This document shows, in pieces, positions 16,212 through 22,355 of a stretch of 32,243 bases of DNA (within the stretch, counting starts at the first letter, position 1; every line of letters starts with the position of its first letter). The notes beneath the pieces are model-generated. The model saw only the letters and a program-made list of their open reading frames with translations. It ran no database searches and was not told the DNA's origin. The stretch spans positions 1 to 32,243 of the forward strand of contig CAMATH010000098.1 in NCBI GenBank assembly GCA_945860955.1, read 5' to 3'. The position numbers and the translations under genes are program-made. The DNA is from Planctomicrobium piriforme. GTDB taxonomy: Bacteria > Planctomycetota > Planctomycetia > Planctomycetales > Planctomycetaceae.

Positions 16212-16240
16212 GGGGGGGGGATCGGGGGTGAGAAAGTAGG

Positions 16241-16510
16241 GACAGGATGAAAGGGATGGACAGGATGGGGTGAACTGTGGCAAAGCGCCCGCCCGGTGGT
16301 AAAGCGTAACCAGGTCGCGAAGCGACCCTCCCCCCCTTAGCAAGGGGGGGCAGGGGGGGGCGCATTGTCAGCGAACTGGGCGTGACTCGCAAATCGGAAT
16401 GTGTTTGACGCTCGCGTTATGGTTCTTGGCGGGTTGGAGAACAGTGTACTGACCGAGTGACCCTCCCTACCCCCCCTTCCTAATGGGGGGACGCCGTCGC
16501 AGCGCGACGG
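16241..16510. repeat. Long dispersed repeat, copy 1 (upstream of ankyrin gene)
   Basis: About 270 bp that closely match 21667-21914. Shared parts include AAAGGGATGGACAGGATG, the stretch around AACCAGGTCGCGAAGCGACC, a hairpin CCCCCCTT-AGC-AAGGGGGG, a TTGGCGGGTTGGAGAACAGTG stretch and a second C-tract/G-tract hairpin near the end. This copy carries an extra segment of about 20 bp. Each copy begins some 30-55 bases before the start of a minus-strand gene. There is no open frame of its own that looks like a gene. Confidence 0.75.
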
Positions 16511-16625
16511 AAGACTCTCATCACGCCTCGCGCCGGACCGAGATTCTGTGCGGAGTTCCGGTGACGCTCCGGGCGCGACGGGGATTCCGCCGTGCGCTCC
16601 GGCCGACTGCGCTGCGGTGCTAAAA

Positions 16626-16735
16626 AGGCACCTCCGCTGCGTGGCCTGCGCTCCCGGCTCCACCCCGGTCGCTCCCGCACGGTTCTTTGGTTTGTTACAG
16701 GGAGCTCAGCGAACTAGGAGGAGGCGGAAGCCAAG
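16626..16735 (-). repeat. 3' tail shared by both kinase-FGE genes, copy 1
   Basis: This 110-bp stretch covers the last codons and stop of the kinase gene and about 80 bp beyond. It matches 19779-19887. The innermost 34 bp (16702-16735), including the stop codon, are identical in both copies; the outer part differs at a minority of positions. Conservation of untranslated sequence past the stop is unusual and is discussed as a possible initiation site for retroelement-driven diversification. Confidence 0.7.
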
Positions 16736-18631
16736 GTGGTTACACCAGTAACCGTGTGAGCCCCATTCGCGGGACGCCGAACGGCAGATGCTGGCCGCAT
16801 CGGCCCAACTGCCGCCCCGTCTGACCCGGGTACAGCCTATCTCCGGGCCGGCGGGGTCATTCGTGGGAGAGCGCGTGTAATACTCCCCGCCGAACCAATC
16901 ACTGCACCATTCCGTCACATTGCCGATCAGGTCGTACAGTCCCAGCGTGTTCGGCTCAAACTCCCCGACCGGCGCGGTGTAGACGTATCCATCATTCGCC
17001 GCGATCGCCAACCGGTCGGTGAACTTCTTCTTGTATGCCGCGTCGGCCACATTTCCCAACCGGGCCAATTGCTCGGGATCTTCGCCCAAATAGTGCCAAG
17101 TGGACGTTCCCGCCCGACAGGCGAATTCCCAGATTGCTTCGGTCGGCAAGCGGTACTCCCGCTTTTCCACTTGACTCAGCCACTTGATAAACGCCTGCGT
17201 ATCATTCCAAGAAACGCAAACCACCGGATGGTCGTCCGATTGACCGAAGCCCGGTGTGCGCCAATTTGTTTTTGTTTCGTTCAGTTTCGATCCGCCCCAT
17301 TCCCAAACCCAGCTTCCCTTGCCTGTCTCGGCGTCCGTTCGAAAACCGGTCTGGGCGACAAACTGCGCGAACTGGCCGCGTGTCACTGTGTGGCAACCGA
17401 TCAAGCTCGGCTGCGTGATCCGCACGCGGTGCCGTGGCTGTTCCCAGGCCCCCCACTCGGGTTTGAACGCGCTGTTCGACTGAATCACCCGCTCGATTTC
17501 CGCAGGGGTCGATCCCATCGCGAATTCCCCGGGCGGAATCAACGCGAACCGCATTCCGAGCGAATTGGTCGTCTCGACCGGGACACCCAGAAACTCGCTC
17601 CAGGCACGCTGCGCACTCTTCGCCGCCGCCGCGTCGAACGGCGCGACCAAGAGCGCGGGCGCGGTTTTCACAACGGGCTGGACCGGCGCGACGCGGCCCC
17701 CCGCTTCGAGCGCCCGGATGAACTGTGTGCAGCCCTCAAACCGTGGCTCCCGCTCCTTCGCCAGCCCCCGCAACAGAGCGGCATTGGCCCCCTGGGGCAA
17801 CGCGGGAATGGGATCTGCCGGCTCATTGAGAATCGCCTCGCGCAATGCCGTGCCGACAACCGCCTCAAACGGCGGATGGCCCGCCAGCAGTTCATACGCC
17901 ACCACCGCCAGCGCGTACTGATCTGTCCGCCCATCCCACTGCGTCCGCTTCCCGCGCAACTGCTCGGGAGACATATACGTGGGGGTGCCGAACGTGTCGA
18001 GCTGCCCTTGCGAGTGCTGGGTCAGCGTACGCCGAATCTCGGCGGCCAGGCCAAAATCGACCAGCACGGTCCGGACGAATTTGCCGTCTTTGTCGACAAT
18101 GACCATGGTATTGTCGGGCTTCACATCGCGATGCAGCACCCCTTGACCGGCGGACTGTTCGAGCCGCGAGGTGGGTTCTGAATGCGCGTAATCGAGCGCC
18201 TCGGCGATCGGCCGCAGCAGCCGGACCACATCGTCGACCGTGAGCTTCCCCTGTTTGAGCCGCAAGCGGTGCACGTGTTCGGTCAGCGTGACCCCGGGGA
18301 CAAAATCGAGAACCACGAACGGTCCGAAAACAATGTCGTCTTCCATGTCGATCGTCTTGCAGATCGACGGATGCGTGAGCGGCTGGACGACGAGATACGC
18401 CTGGTGAACCTGCAAGACGGCGGCCTGAATGCCGCGCACCTCCCTCGGCAGCAGCTTGATCGCAACGGGGTGCCCCTTGGGGTGCCGGGCCTTCCAGGCC
18501 TGTCCCATACCGCCGGCCCCCAGGGGTTCGAGCAATTGGTATTTGCCGAGGTAATCGCCGGGGGTCGGATTGACGCCGAAACCGGCGGTCGGCTGGGGCC
18601 GGCGTTGGAAGGGGTCGAAGGGGTCGGACAT
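16706..18631 (-). CDS. Ser/Thr protein kinase fused to C-terminal FGE/SUMF1 (C-type-lectin-fold) domain
   Basis: The 641-aa protein has an N-terminal Hanks-type kinase: glycine loop GAGGMG (38-43), K59, catalytic HRDVKPDN (167-174), DFG (192-194) and GTPTYMSPEQL (about 216-225). A linker (about 310-352) leads to an FGE/SUMF1 domain (about 355-641) with LIPPGEFAMGS, HPVVCVSWNDTQAF, YRLPTEAIWEFACRAGT, IGNVTEWCSDWF and the terminal RGGSW...CRSA...LGFRL pattern. The Cys pair of true sulfatase-activating FGE enzymes is not evident, so the domain is more likely a binding or sensor module. No transmembrane helix separates the domains, so it is probably cytosolic. It lies downstream of a second kinase-FGE gene, sharing its 3' end sequence. 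Start ATG at 18629-18631. Confidence 0.92.
   Translation of the reverse strand: MSDPFDPFQRRPQPTAGFGVNPTPGDYLGKYQLLEPLGAGGMGQAWKARHPKGHPVAIKLLPREVRGIQAAVLQVHQAYLVVQPLTHPSICKTIDMEDDIVFGPFVVLDFVPGVTLTEHVHRLRLKQGKLTVDDVVRLLRPIAEALDYAHSEPTSRLEQSAGQGVLHRDVKPDNTMVIVDKDGKFVRTVLVDFGLAAEIRRTLTQHSQGQLDTFGTPTYMSPEQLRGKRTQWDGRTDQYALAVVAYELLAGHPPFEAVVGTALREAILNEPADPIPALPQGANAALLRGLAKEREPRFEGCTQFIRALEAGGRVAPVQPVVKTAPALLVAPFDAAAAKSAQRAWSEFLGVPVETTNSLGMRFALIPPGEFAMGSTPAEIERVIQSNSAFKPEWGAWEQPRHRVRITQPSLIGCHTVTRGQFAQFVAQTGFRTDAETGKGSWVWEWGGSKLNETKTNWRTPGFGQSDDHPVVCVSWNDTQAFIKWLSQVEKREYRLPTEAIWEFACRAGTSTWHYLGEDPEQLARLGNVADAAYKKKFTDRLAIAANDGYVYTAPVGEFEPNTLGLYDLIGNVTEWCSDWFGGEYYTRSPTNDPAGPEIGCTRVRRGGSWADAASICRSASREWGSHGYWCNHLGFRLLLVR
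16736..16816 (-). other. Candidate DGR-type variable region in first kinase-FGE gene
   Basis: These 81 nt encode GGSW through the residue before LGFRL. Compared codon by codon with 19888-19968, 24 of 81 positions differ: 11 in first, 6 in second and 7 in third codon positions, changing 14 of 27 residues. Eight differing codons end in C in both genes (for example ATC/GGC, TCC/GGC, GGC/CTC, CAC/GAC), as expected if both derive from AAC codons by adenine mutagenesis. The next 34 nt are identical. Confidence 0.5.
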
Positions 18632-18638
18632 GGCGGAA

Positions 18639-18701
18639 GGATGAAGGATGAAGGATGAAGGATGAAAGATGAAAGATGACGGATGACGGATGACGGGTGA
18701 C
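18639..18701. repeat. Heptanucleotide tandem repeat directly upstream of kinase start
   Basis: Nine consecutive 7-bp units: GGATGAA four times, then AGATGAA, AGATGAC, GGATGAC twice and GGGTGAC. On the coding strand they read (TTCATCC)n, ending 7 bases before the ATG at 18631, where a ribosome-binding site would normally be. A shorter run of the same unit lies before the SPFH gene (26417-26437). Confidence 0.8.
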
Positions 18702-19107
18702 GTGGGTACCCCGAAGGGGTTTTAGCGCACAGCCCAGGGTTGGTCGAGCGTAGCGAGACCTACCCTGGGTGACACGTTGACCCGGTACGTACCCTGAAAG
18801 GGTTCCATCCGGGGTGAGCGGGAGAAACACACGGGCAATCGATCTTTCGGTATCCGTTTGTGGCCCAACTTCTTTCCAACAATCATCGCAGATCTCCTTC
18901 GTAAAGCCTGGATGAAACCCGTTCAGGGTAGGGTTTGGGTGACGGTTCGCAAACCCAGGGTGGGTCTCGCTCCGCTCGACCGACTCTGGGCTTTGGTATC
19001 AAGCCCCGTTTGGGTAATTCCACTCGCACAGCCGGCTCTTCCCGCGCGCCGAATTCGTTGGCCATGGTGCAGGTTGGGCCTGAAGCCGAGTCGTTTCGTC
19101 CTTCCCG

Positions 19108-19198
19108 CCCATTGGACATCGGACCCATGCGTCAAAAAATCCCAGGGAGGTCTGGGGGGACAGAGTCCCCCCAGCTTGGATCCAACAGTGTCGCAATG
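19108..19198 (+). repeat. Dispersed hairpin element, copy 1
   Basis: CTGGGGGGAC (19152-19161) and GTCCCCCCAG (19165-19174) form a perfect 10-bp stem with an AGA loop. The flank on the left (CCCATTGGACATCGGACCCATG and an A-rich stretch before TCCCAGG) is shared with copies at 21936-22033 (inverted) and 22268-22355. Confidence 0.75.
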
Positions 19199-19273
19199 CT
19201 CCCAGACGAATCCGAACAACGTCGATTTCAATTCGGCCGCCGCGATTCGGTTGGCTGCCGGGCGCTGCCCCGC

Positions 19274-19326
19274 GAACGGTCTTCGGCGGTTGATTGCACA
19301 CTGGCGGCTCACGAGGACGTTCGCCC
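19274..19326 (+). repeat. 53-bp direct repeat, copy 1 (contains a 31-bp element)
   Basis: This matches 19714-19766 with two mismatches. Its 31-bp core (19296-19326; starts GCACACTGGCGGCTCACGAG) also occurs inverted at 19524-19554, so three copies lie within 500 bp. Confidence 0.75.
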
Positions 19327-19523
19327 TTCCGCGGTGTCGATGGCACCCCGGAGTGCGGTTATCGGCTTGCGGACGCACAGCGGTGGTGTCCCCGCGCGGT
19401 GGGAAGGGACCGCTGGACCCGCGTGGGGGACATCGCGCGGGCGGGGCGTCAAATTGGCGCAGGCGAACCCAATGTGCGTGCAACGGCAAAATGCGCGGAC
19501 GGGGCGCATTCCGCCCGATGGGA

Positions 19524-19554
19524 GGGCGAACGTCCTCGTGAGCCGCCAGTGTGC
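19524..19554 (-). repeat. 31-bp element, inverted copy
   Basis: Reverse complement of the core at 19296-19326 and 19736-19766. It lies midway between the two direct copies, so it can pair with either to form a long stem. Confidence 0.7.
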
Positions 19555-19713
19555 GTTCGAGCGCAACACAACGAACTCTGGGAAGCGCTCGACCCGAATT
19601 CCTCGGAAGCCGCCTGTGTCTTTTTCGCATTCCAAAATCCGTCGTCTGGGGTGCCGCCGACGCGCGTTTGAATCGGCTGACCAATGGCGGTTGTGTGTCC
19701 AGCACGGCCCGGC

Positions 19714-19766
19714 GGACGGTTTTCGGCGGTTGATTGCACACTGGCGGCTCACGAGGACGTTCGCCC
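19714..19766 (+). repeat. 53-bp direct repeat, copy 2
   Basis: This matches 19274-19326 with two mismatches and ends 12 bases before the shared 3' tail of the kinase-FGE gene. Confidence 0.75.
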
Positions 19767-19778
19767 TCCCGTGGGGAC

Positions 19779-19887
19779 AGGCACCTCCGCTGGTGGCCTG
19801 CGCTCCCGGCTCCACCCCGGTCGCTGCCGCACACGTCTTTGGTTTTCCACACCGAGCTCAGCGAACTAGGAGGAGGCGGAAGCCAAG
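19779..19887 (-). repeat. 3' tail shared by both kinase-FGE genes, copy 2
   Basis: Counterpart of 16626-16735. Bases 19854-19887 are identical to 16702-16735 and include the stop codon; the part beyond the stop matches with scattered differences. See the finding on retroelement-like diversification. Confidence 0.7.
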
Positions 19888-21613
19888 GTCGTAGTTCCAG
19901 TCCTCGGGCGAGAGCCTGTCGCGGCCCGCCGAGCGGCAGCCGCCGGCTGCATTCGCCCAACCGCCGCCCCGGGAGACCCGGAACGAGCCTACTTCTGGTC
20001 CCGTGGGATCGTCGCCTCCCTTGAGCGTGGCATCGTAGTGGTCGGCGCACCATTCCCAAACCAGTCCAGCCATATCGTGCAGGTTCCAAGGGTTGGGCTT
20101 CCGGGTGCCGACGGCTTGCAGCGTACCGCCCGAATTCGCAGTGTACCACGCGTAGTCCTTCAGAACCGCTTCGTTGGGGCCGCAAAACCACGGCGTGTCG
20201 GTTCCGGCCCGGCAGGCGTATTCCCATTGGGCTTCGGTCGGTAAGCCAACCCACCACCCTTCCGGCAGCAAGTTCTCTTTCCGCAGCAATTTCGTGAACT
20301 GTCGCGCGAAATTGTCGCACGTTGGCCCATCAACCTGGGTGACCGGATACTGGTCTCCCGTCTGGTTTTGATCCTTTGGAATCCCTCCCGAAATCTTTTG
20401 AAACAGCCCCTGGGTCACGGGAGCCTGGGCCATCCAAAAACCGTGCGTGATCCGAACGGCAACTTCATTCTCGTTGTCACTTCGTCCTGCTTCGACCGCC
20501 GGCGAACCCATCTCAAATTCGCCCGGCGGGCACCAGCAGAACGCGACCTCCAAACCGCGAAAGTTGATCTTTCGAATCTCCCCCGCCCGGCTGCCAATCC
20601 ATGGATCCTTTGGGGGGGAAGCCGCGCTGGGTGTCACCCGCACGGTGTCGCGACCAGCGACGGCACCGTCCTGGTTCGTGGTCACTTGCGGCTTTGCGGT
20701 CTCCCCGGCCAGCGCCGCAGCGAACGCGCCGCAACTCGTGAACCGGGCCTCCGGATTCCGGCTGAGCGCCCGCAGCAAGGCGCAGTTGACGTGATCGGGA
20801 ACACCCGCGATCGGGGGAACCGCCACATCGGAGTTGGTGATCTTGTAAATGATCTGATTCACGTCGCGCCCCGTGAACGGCAACTGGCCCGACTGAAATT
20901 CGTACAGGGCGACCCCGAGCGAATACAGGTCGCTCCGCCGGGTCGGCCGGTCGTCGGCCGAAGTGAACGCTTCGGGGGGCATGTAGGGAACCGACCCCTT
21001 GTCGTACGTCCGCTTGGAGATCGTGTTCATGGTCGTGCTGATTGTGGCCGCGATGCCGAAATCGACCACCTTGACCTTGGGTTGAGTGGTCCCCTTTTCC
21101 ATGACCAGAATATTCTGCTGCTTGATGTCGAGATGCAGAATTCCCTCGGCGTGCATGTAGTCGAGCGCCTCGGCCGACTGCCGGGCGATTGTCGCGAGCA
21201 GGCCCACCGTCGGCGGGGACTTGGTCTGCTCCAGAATTCGGACTCGATACTGGCCGAGTTCGACGCCGTCGATGAAGTGCATCACCAGAAACGGGCCGAA
21301 GGTGGGGTGATCGGTGATGTGCAGCACCGAACAGAGATGGGGATGGGCCAGGTGATGCACCAGGCTGAACGATCGGCGGACTTCATTACACGCCGCCTTG
21401 TGACCGCGGAATTTTGAGGGGCAGGAACTTGAGCGCGAGATCACGCCATCCCTGCGGATCACGGGCCTTCCAAACTTCCCCTTCGCCACCCTTGCCGCAA
21501 CGGGCGATCAGTTCGTAGCCGAAGGGGTCGATCGTGAGCTTCGGCCGGAGCGCGCCCATTGCCGTCGTTGAGCGGATGGAGTCGGACGGGGGGAGATCGA
21601 AGGGATTGGACAT
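19858..21613 (-). pseudogene. Ser/Thr kinase-FGE/SUMF1 fusion gene with a one-base frameshift
   Basis: Reading starts at ATG 21613 (MSNPFDLPPSDSIRSTTAMG) and holds the kinase glycine loop (GKGGEGEVW, about 40-48) and ALKFLPLK with K62. At the A4 run on the coding strand (21412-21415) the frame is lost; dropping one base continues as FRGHKAACNEVRRSF and gives a 584-aa product. Remaining motifs in that product: catalytic loop HLDIKQQN (160-167; Leu in place of the usual Arg), DFG (184-186), SVPYMPPEAF, then an FGE domain with CPPGEFEMGSP, GLPTEAQWEYACRAGT, MAGLVWEWCADHYD and a terminal RGGGW...CRSAGR...LGFRL. As written, the gene yields a 75-aa fragment and a kinase-FGE piece lacking the glycine loop. 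It could be a true lesion, a sequencing error or, less likely, recoding. Confidence 0.85.
19888..19968 (-). other. Candidate DGR-type variable region in second kinase-FGE gene
   Basis: 81 nt aligned without gaps to 16736-16816. It encodes GGGWANAAGGCRSAGRDRLS and seven further residues before LGFRL. It sits directly before the 34-bp identical block. The framework codons for GG, W, CRSA, R and W are kept while the positions between them differ from the other copy. Confidence 0.5.
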
Positions 21614-21666
21614 GGTGGGGGTGACTCTGGTTTTTTCAGGACGGGAAAAAGGGAGACAGGATTAAG

Positions 21667-21914
21667 AGGATGAAAGGGATGGACAGGATGAAACAAACTG
21701 TGGCAAAGCGCAACCAGGTCGCGAAGCGACCATCCCCCCCTTAGCAAGGGGGGCAGGGGGGGGGCGCGTTGTCAGCGAATTGGGCGTAACTCGCAAATCG
21801 GACTGTGTTCGACGCTCGGGTCATGGTTTTTGGCGGGTTGGAGAACAGTGCGCAGCCCGAGCGCCCCCCCCTACCCCCCCTTCCTAAGGGGGGGACGCCG
21901 TCGCTGCGCGACGG
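21667..21914. repeat. Long dispersed repeat, copy 2 (upstream of kinase-FGE gene)
   Basis: Counterpart of 16241-16510 with high identity over about 250 bp, including both C-tract/G-tract hairpins. It lacks the extra 20-bp insert of copy 1. It begins 54 bases before the kinase ATG at 21613. Confidence 0.75.
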
Positions 21915-21935: not shown

Positions 21936-22033
21936 CCTACACATGACCACGCTGTTGGACCATAGCTGGAGGGGACTCTGTCCCCCCAGACCCCCCTGGG
22001 ATTTTTGAGGCATGGGTCCAGTGTCCAATGGTG
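21936..22033 (-). repeat. Dispersed hairpin element, inverted copy 2
   Basis: This holds the stem GTCCCCCCAG with an imperfect partner (CTGGAGGGGAC, one extra base) at 21966-21989 and the same flanks as the other copies in reverse order. With copy 3 it forms a facing pair about 230 bp apart. Confidence 0.7.
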
Positions 22034-22267: not shown

Positions 22268-22355
22268 AATGTCTTTTCCTCCCATTGGACATCGGACCCA
22301 TGCCTAAAAAAATCCCAGGGGGGTCTGGGGGGACAGAGTCCCCCCAGCTCAGGCC
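22268..22355 (+). repeat. Dispersed hairpin element, copy 3
   Basis: Perfect 10-bp stem CTGGGGGGAC (22325-22334) and GTCCCCCCAG (22338-22347) with loop AGA, preceded by the shared CATTGGACATCGGACCCATG flank. It lies 65 bases past the end of the FHA gene and could act as its terminator even without a T-run. Confidence 0.75.

Follow-up and report, generated by a model that had tools for sequence, protein, structure and literature searches.

Kinase–FGE genes of a planctomycete as probable orphaned targets of a diversity-generating retroelement, with a long hairpin downstream of their variable ends

A pair of kinase–FGE genes with variable 3′ ends

The window analysed here covers positions 1 to 32,243 of contig CAMATH010000098.1 (assembly GCA_945860955.1), from an uncultured planctomycete assigned to Planctomicrobium piriforme. 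Two genes on its minus strand, A and B, lie in tandem (Table 1); their proteins are 32% identical over the full length, and their C-terminal FGE domains end in stretches resembling the variable repeats (VRs) of diversity-generating retroelements (DGRs). These stretches, and the hairpin that follows them, are the subject of this work. Matches to PF03781 (FGE-sulfatase / C-type-lectin-like) were above the cut-off in both genes (A, 5.8e-52; B, 1.5e-31), and PF00069 matched at 4.7e-29 and 5e-30, respectively. In gene A, VAIK, HRDVKPDN and DFG, which we take to be kinase motifs, all occurred in a single frame. The frame of gene B is broken past the kinase N-lobe, or the assembly is in error.

Table 1. 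Features of the two genes and their 3′ ends; positions are those of the window, and R1 is the covariance model of the hairpin described in the text
Feature	Coordinates	Strand	Description
Gene A	16706..18631	minus	Ser/Thr protein kinase with C-terminal FGE-sulfatase (C-type-lectin-like) domain, 641 aa, apparently intact
Variable-repeat-like block of A	16711..16829	minus	−105..+13 relative to GFR end at 16724
Constant tail of A	16702..16735	minus	Position after the variable part like that of an initiation-of-mutagenic-homing sequence; spans stop codon; identical to B
Complete hairpin element of A	16579..16665	minus	Starts 58 nt after GFR codons; R1 60 bits, E 1e-9 / 1.6e-8
Gene B	19858..21489	minus	Longest open frame, 543 aa, kinase–FGE, without kinase N-lobe
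N-terminal part of gene B	21386..21613	minus	Other frame, glycine-rich loop and lysine segment, terminates at stop
Variable-repeat-like block of B	19863..19990	minus	−114..+13 relative to GFR end at 19876
Constant tail of B	19854..19887	minus	After variable part; identical to A
Half element of B	19758..19817	minus	5′ arm intact, 3′ half gone; R1 19.3 bits, E 0.38

The original prediction, made from the sequence alone, had singled out an 81-nt stretch in each gene. An ungapped alignment of the two shows 24 differences, of which 17 are at codon positions 1 or 2 and 7 at position 3, and a recount agreed that 14 of 27 residues are changed. The final C is kept in all eight codon pairs cited there, and the third base in 11 of the 14 residue-changing codons. 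The 34 nt that follow, crossing the stop codon, are identical in both genes. The RGGSW...GFR framework had been discounted as general, and was indeed present across the FGE genes of the window genome. Similarity of the two loci extends over 233 columns at 79% (16626-16858 against 19779-20010); measured from the end of the GFR codons, it reaches 134 nt upstream and 98 nt downstream. The earlier observation of similar untranslated tails, for about 80 nt beyond the stop codons, also held; both this similarity and its end are accounted for by the hairpin element.

A template-sized block in common with a TIR–NACHT gene

A third copy of the stretch was found on contig C870 of G164, a genome of the same genus, where it forms the 3′ end of a TIR–NACHT–FGE gene. 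Its common block with B runs from −114 to +13 around GFR (129 columns, 84.5%), and that with A from −105 to +13 (120 columns, 77.5%). Proven blocks matching a template repeat (TR) to a VR in the window genome run from −114 to +15, −111/−112 to +17 and −106 to +21, with 129-130 columns at 84-88%. Judged by alignment, the limits of the B/G164 block are like those of the proven TR/VR blocks. Within the B/G164 comparison, the third base is kept in 9 of 10 changed codons, with 2 synonymous differences; a second match, of 44 nt at 77%, lies farther upstream within the FGE domain. B and the G164 gene thus present a template-sized block with a constant 3′ end and unlike flanks, and since one is a kinase gene and the other a TIR–NACHT gene, different effector modules carry a single template-sized block.

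G164 also holds a separate DGR on contig C1025 (locus L072), whose reverse transcriptase (RT) carries IGNLTSQ. Mismatches between its TR and VR fall at 17 template A and 0 other positions over the best 90 nt, and at 19 A and 3 other positions in the 93-nt register; it has no match to R1.

Comparison with other FGE C-termini

As a background we used the 387 equal-length pairs of FGE C-termini in the window genome, A/B included. Thirteen other pairs, grouped as variable-repeat families, were set aside, six having a proven template and seven being picked from the same table, which makes the step partly circular. None of the remaining 373 pairs matched A/B in both respects, a third-base retention of 11/14 and synonymous change limited to 4 of 18 unchanged residues; mean third-base retention of the background pairs was 0.52. 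When the 13 pairs were restored, 13 of 386 other pairs were as good as A/B or better on both measures. That 15/24 of the differences between A and B coincide with adenines in other templates was dropped as support, generic FGE pairs being nearly as high.

A and B might instead be ordinary FGE paralogues in which this loop is generally variable, the identical tail and untranslated stretch having arisen by duplication or gene conversion. Such an origin would suit the full-length homology of the two proteins and the genome-wide framework, and FGE pairs without a DGR link do vary at the same codons, some reaching the third-base retention of A/B. Against it stand the joint behaviour of the two measures, with the partial circularity just described, and the B/G164 block, which has the limits of a template block despite the differing N-terminal parts of the genes. 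The tail, moreover, belongs to an element found beside DGR variable repeats, as described below. Simple paralogy is, on these grounds, very improbable.

DGR machinery of the genome and search for a template

The window genome (G000; its contigs are given as C-numbers) is assembled into 8.4 Mb on 282 contigs, with a completeness of 98.9%. Five loci contained RVT_1. The enzymes of C49 (L012) and C141 (L011) are complete DGR-type RTs, matching PHROG 1423 at 5e-85 and 1e-91; their best solved relative is 8ub7, presumably the Bordetella phage DGR enzyme. A partial RT of 171 residues at the start of C258 (L075) is 59% identical to the C141 enzyme. The SQ motif typical of DGR RTs reads IGALTSQ, IGSLMSQ and IGSLTSQ in C49, C141 and the partial C258, respectively. 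C74 (L001) and C29 (L002) were rejected as DGR enzymes, being retron-like, as was the group-II-like RT of C65, which matched PHROG 1423 at only 3.5e-34 and has no SQ motif. The retron-like pair gave PADLOC RT_other at 7e-130 and 4e-151, and look-alikes were seen by eye in G164, G165 and G166.

Three DGR systems with different FGE-type templates are thus present in one genome. Mismatches between the C49 template and its two variable repeats fall at template A in 15/15 and 16/16 cases, and those of the C258 template in 17/17. The C141 template lies directly behind its own RT and has a trans target on C44 (L054; 11/11 mismatches at template A), and a second copy of it is found at the start of C143 (L055). 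The DGR targets found in the genome are FGE genes; FGE matches number 61, four of them templates. Further VR-like FGE groups have no known template in the assembly: C57/C164/C221, C177 (with a pair of FGE domains in a single frame), C22 (two), C2/C69 (with a template-sized block from −115 to +15) and C225/C8.

None of these RTs could be linked to A/B, and no matching RT locus was found for them in the assembly. A whole-assembly search for the 34-bp block, suggested with the original prediction as a route to a template beside a DGR-type RT, returned only the two copies in A and B at up to 3 mismatches. A template pattern with N at the variable positions likewise found A and B only, and a looser pattern in four genomes of the genus found A, B and the G164 copy. 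DNA similarity across 170 genomes of the family gave, outside the own genome, only G164 and a weak 68% match in G060. The exact pattern matched the G164 contig alone in a collection of genomes from 84,980 species, from which records at or near the window genome were possibly excluded, and had zero matches in viral contigs. The known templates of C49, C258 and C141 were rejected as sources, with 23, 23 and 21 non-A mismatches for A and 21, 20 and 18 for B, respectively; the C141 comparison used one 6-nt gap.

By the refuting condition set with the original prediction, the cognate template is absent, but this is not final in an assembly of 282 contigs, where contig ends hold several pieces of DGRs. 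The RT of C141 begins 260 nt from the contig start, and C143 opens with the final 12 nt of a C141-like RT. C258 opens inside its RT and terminates 73 nt past its VR block, and C870 of G164 terminates at its VR. DGR templates, repeats or RT fragments were seen near contig ends in C141, C143, C258, C221 and C870 of G164, as if the assembly had been broken there by hypervariation or duplication.

The proposal that both genes are remote targets of one retroelement therefore stands in part. Their ends behave as variable regions, the genome holds DGR RTs and FGE-type templates, and the untranslated tail is part of a hairpin seen behind the variable repeats of DGRs in related genomes. A single source is not supported: no template was found, the three known ones misfit, and four synonymous differences would be poorly explained by one template. 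On this comparison A and B need not derive from one template; they would have drifted since the last rewriting, or been written from two related templates.

A long hairpin downstream of the variable repeats

The hairpin downstream of the variable repeat is whole in A and half in B, where an interspersed repeat (19688-19776) begins at the point expected for the 3′ half. At up to 1 mismatch the 18-mer GGAGCCGGGAGCGNAGGC occurred at 9 sites in the 8.4 Mb, 9/9 of them following an FGE gene at 28-56 nt beyond its Pfam match. At 2 mismatches, 2 of 10 sites lay behind FGE genes, and the reversed pattern gave 8 sites. In relatives, a 22-mer was found at 17 places outside the own genome; 16 were viewed, one overlap being dropped, and an FGE gene lay upstream in nine, the ninth being on C101 of G075. 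In the relatives, GGAGCCGGGAGCGNAGGC opens a hairpin of about 83 nt, built of short helices and symmetric 3-nt purine loops, with apical stems that differ in sequence.

A covariance model, R1, was built from eight sequences, seven from relatives and that of gene A. It found 35 sites in 15 of 170 genomes of the family, in 12 of 58 genera. Thirty of these had a locus and entered the count, eight being seeds. An FGE C-terminus lay directly upstream on the same strand in 29 of the 30, the remaining one being cut by a contig end; without the seeds the count was 21 of 22, the remaining one untestable. In an alignment of 27 distinct rows, 88.5% of cells are paired, where sliding leaves 26.9-55.9%, and double changes number 27, where shuffling gives 6.2; these figures are favoured by the fitting of the alignment to the model. 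Over 84 sequence sources R1 gave 29 matches at E<=1. Ten matches in the own genome were below E 1e-3 (A, C57, C221, C164, two in C8, C2, C198, C229 and C130), and C225, C69, C12, B and C258 (19.1 bits, cut by the contig end) matched weakly. A weak match within the coding part of gene B (20686-20769) was taken as chance.

The element has no counterpart among Rfam families at gathering score in the window, and at E<=1 seven loci (21.5 kb) gave a single unrelated weak match. Folds of short single-stranded DNA from the A and B tails gave no signal (z 0.78 and 0.28), because the windows used (16630-16720 and 19782-19872) cut the element. In a literature search of open-licence full texts, no paper was recognised as describing this hairpin. 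The long structured hairpin is the most novel part of these results, the A/B pair itself being of a kind already known.

Examination of 20 stretches around element sites in relatives yielded three complete DGR loci (G076, G101 and G045). The mismatches of two repeats in G076 fall at template A in 17/17 and 14/14 cases (best 90 nt), and those of G101 and G045 in 15/15 and 21/24. The hairpin stands behind 4/4 VRs and 0/3 TRs of these loci, starting 37-60 nt after GFR. Compared with the C141 and C49 enzymes, RTs beside the element show 52-57% and 36-39% identity, respectively. Hairpin-bearing FGE pairs keep the third base in 10/10, 10/10 and 12/12 changed codons (G137), 12/12 (G076), 12/12 (G102) and 10/10 (the C96 pair of G075), with 0 synonymous differences each. 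Less clean were G142 (11/18) and the remaining nine pairs of G075, which range from 10/16 to 14/15 and have 1-6 synonymous differences.

An alternative is that the element is a transcription terminator or an mRNA 3′-end structure of FGE sensor genes, with no role in retrohoming. A strong hairpin close to stop codons would fit, as would loops unlike the published DGR loop in nine own copies and in three of the four copies at complete loci, and four proven VRs without an R1 match. Against this, the element stands behind VRs and behind no TR in the three complete loci. GRNA/GRA apical loops, the type described for DGR target hairpins (PMC3240598, PMC4372165), were seen in 14 of 32 elements, a count without a computed chance level, made up of 14 of 23 in relatives and 0 of 9 own copies; the loop of A, CTTTTTA, is outside the published consensus. 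The full element is also carried by the VR-like trio C57/C164/C221 of the own genome. A purely transcriptional role thus appears unlikely.

Interpretation

In known DGRs a template RNA is copied with errors at A and the cDNA replaces the variable repeat; BPP-1, as described, needs a hairpin just beyond the repeat (PMC3240598). By the same scheme, the last ~115 coding nt of each FGE domain in A and B would be a VR that mutagenic retrohoming once rewrote from a template rich in adenine. The 3′ boundary of this rewriting would be the constant tail, CTTGGCTTCCGCCTCCTCCT, and the hairpin starting 58 nt past GFR would be the target-recognition element. Each gene would encode a sensor like the DGR targets of multicellular bacteria, a kinase whose ligand-binding head can be diversified. 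The variation pattern, the limits of the blocks, the hairpin and the DGR machinery elsewhere in the genome are direct observations, and the origin of the variation by retrohoming, the part of the hairpin in target recognition and the sensor role are inferred from them. By analogy with known DGRs, the hairpin may flag FGE sensor genes as targets, and one template could then serve kinase-type and NACHT-type genes. We consider it very probable that A and B are DGR target genes with formerly rewritten variable repeats and this hairpin as recognition element, and that the pair is by now orphaned.

Several results weigh against this reading. Four synonymous third-base differences lie within the A/B stretch; in pairs from the three proven-template families there are none, or 1 when the C143 copy of the template is compared, and all changed codons keep the third base. 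Taken singly, third-base retention and synonymous change reach the A/B level in 29/373 and 10/373 background pairs. Generic FGE pairs vary at the same codons as well: 15/24 A/B differences coincide with adenines of other templates, but 136 pairs already have a median of 53%. The searches described above yielded neither a template nor an RT locus for A/B. The three complete loci were found through the hairpin and are a selected sample, and in only one of their four hairpins (G101) does the predicted fold show the consensus loop. Lastly, R1 had no match (E<=1) behind four proven VRs, two of C49 and those of C44 and C1025 of G164, which had been found through their RT or template. The element seems to mark only a subset of DGR targets.

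With B frame-broken, half of its hairpin lost and synonymous drift between the two genes, the pair has most likely been orphaned and has probably decayed in part. Gene A alone may still be a competent target. A and B could also both be active remote targets, their template and RT lying in an assembly gap or in other strains. The 282 contigs, and DGR pieces at the ends of C141, C143, C258 and the G164 contig, leave room for this, and Thiohalocapsa is described as having VRs without a template match in the reference genome and reads with intact variants (PMC10907252). The high completeness, the state of B and its hairpin, and the synonymous drift, which speaks against recent rewriting from a single template, make continued activity of both genes rather unlikely.

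More tentatively, there may be a planctomycete DGR family whose long target-recognition hairpin is common to many dispersed FGE sensor genes, linked to kinase, NACHT or TIR modules and serving as mobile, trans-addressable targets; we regard this as possible, somewhat short of probable. If so, several families of targets might be served by RTs from a single clade, and a target could persist after its template was lost.

Relation to known systems

A close parallel is Thiohalocapsa PB-PSB1 (PNAS 2024, PMC10907252), for which lectin-type targets with kinase, NACHT and TIR modules are described, along with activity in trans and repeats that lack a template. As there, a C-terminal lectin-type domain is fused to kinase, NACHT or TIR modules, a genome carries several DGR loci, some loci are degenerate, and there are targets in trans and VRs without a template match. 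Unlike that account, the present case concerns Planctomycetota, is known from assemblies, and has as its VR-downstream element a long, regular, conserved hairpin.

With BPP-1 (PLoS Genet 2011, PMC3240598) the element has in common an inverted repeat past the TR/VR homology, of which the structure is kept and the stem sequence varies, and the GRNA/GRA-type loop. The phage-type hairpin or cruciform reported there has a GC stem of 7-10 bp and a 4-nt loop, 4-34 bp from the VR; the present element, in contrast, is ~80 nt long, with several short helices and symmetric 3-nt purine loops, at the distances from GFR given above for the three complete loci. GRA triloops are also described for the nanoarchaeal DUSEL4 DGR hairpins (Nat Commun 2015, PMC4372165), and GGA occurs in several copies here. 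The DUSEL4 hairpin lies inside the target gene, unlike the present element, which lies around or past the stop codon.

According to a large DGR survey, its own method would miss DGRs that act on remote targets when the assembly is fragmented (PMC8144416). With a covariance model of the hairpin, candidate targets of the remote or orphan kind can be found even where no template is known, and DGR targets that are dispersed or relict become countable. The hairpin is also a concrete element with which target recognition in bacterial chromosomes can be tested.

Repeats around the gene pair

Direct repeats of 215 nt at 89% stand on both sides of the A–B pair (16296-16510 / 21700-21914), with further ones of 59 nt at 81% (16230-16288 / 21653-21711), as if the block had moved or been duplicated together with its borders. 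Between A and B lie interspersed repeats in both orientations (19248-19334, 19500-19591 and 19688-19776). A perfect 36-nt inverted repeat is found at 21971-22006 / 22308-22343, with a spacing of 301 nt, and a third copy at 19135-19170 is 97% identical.

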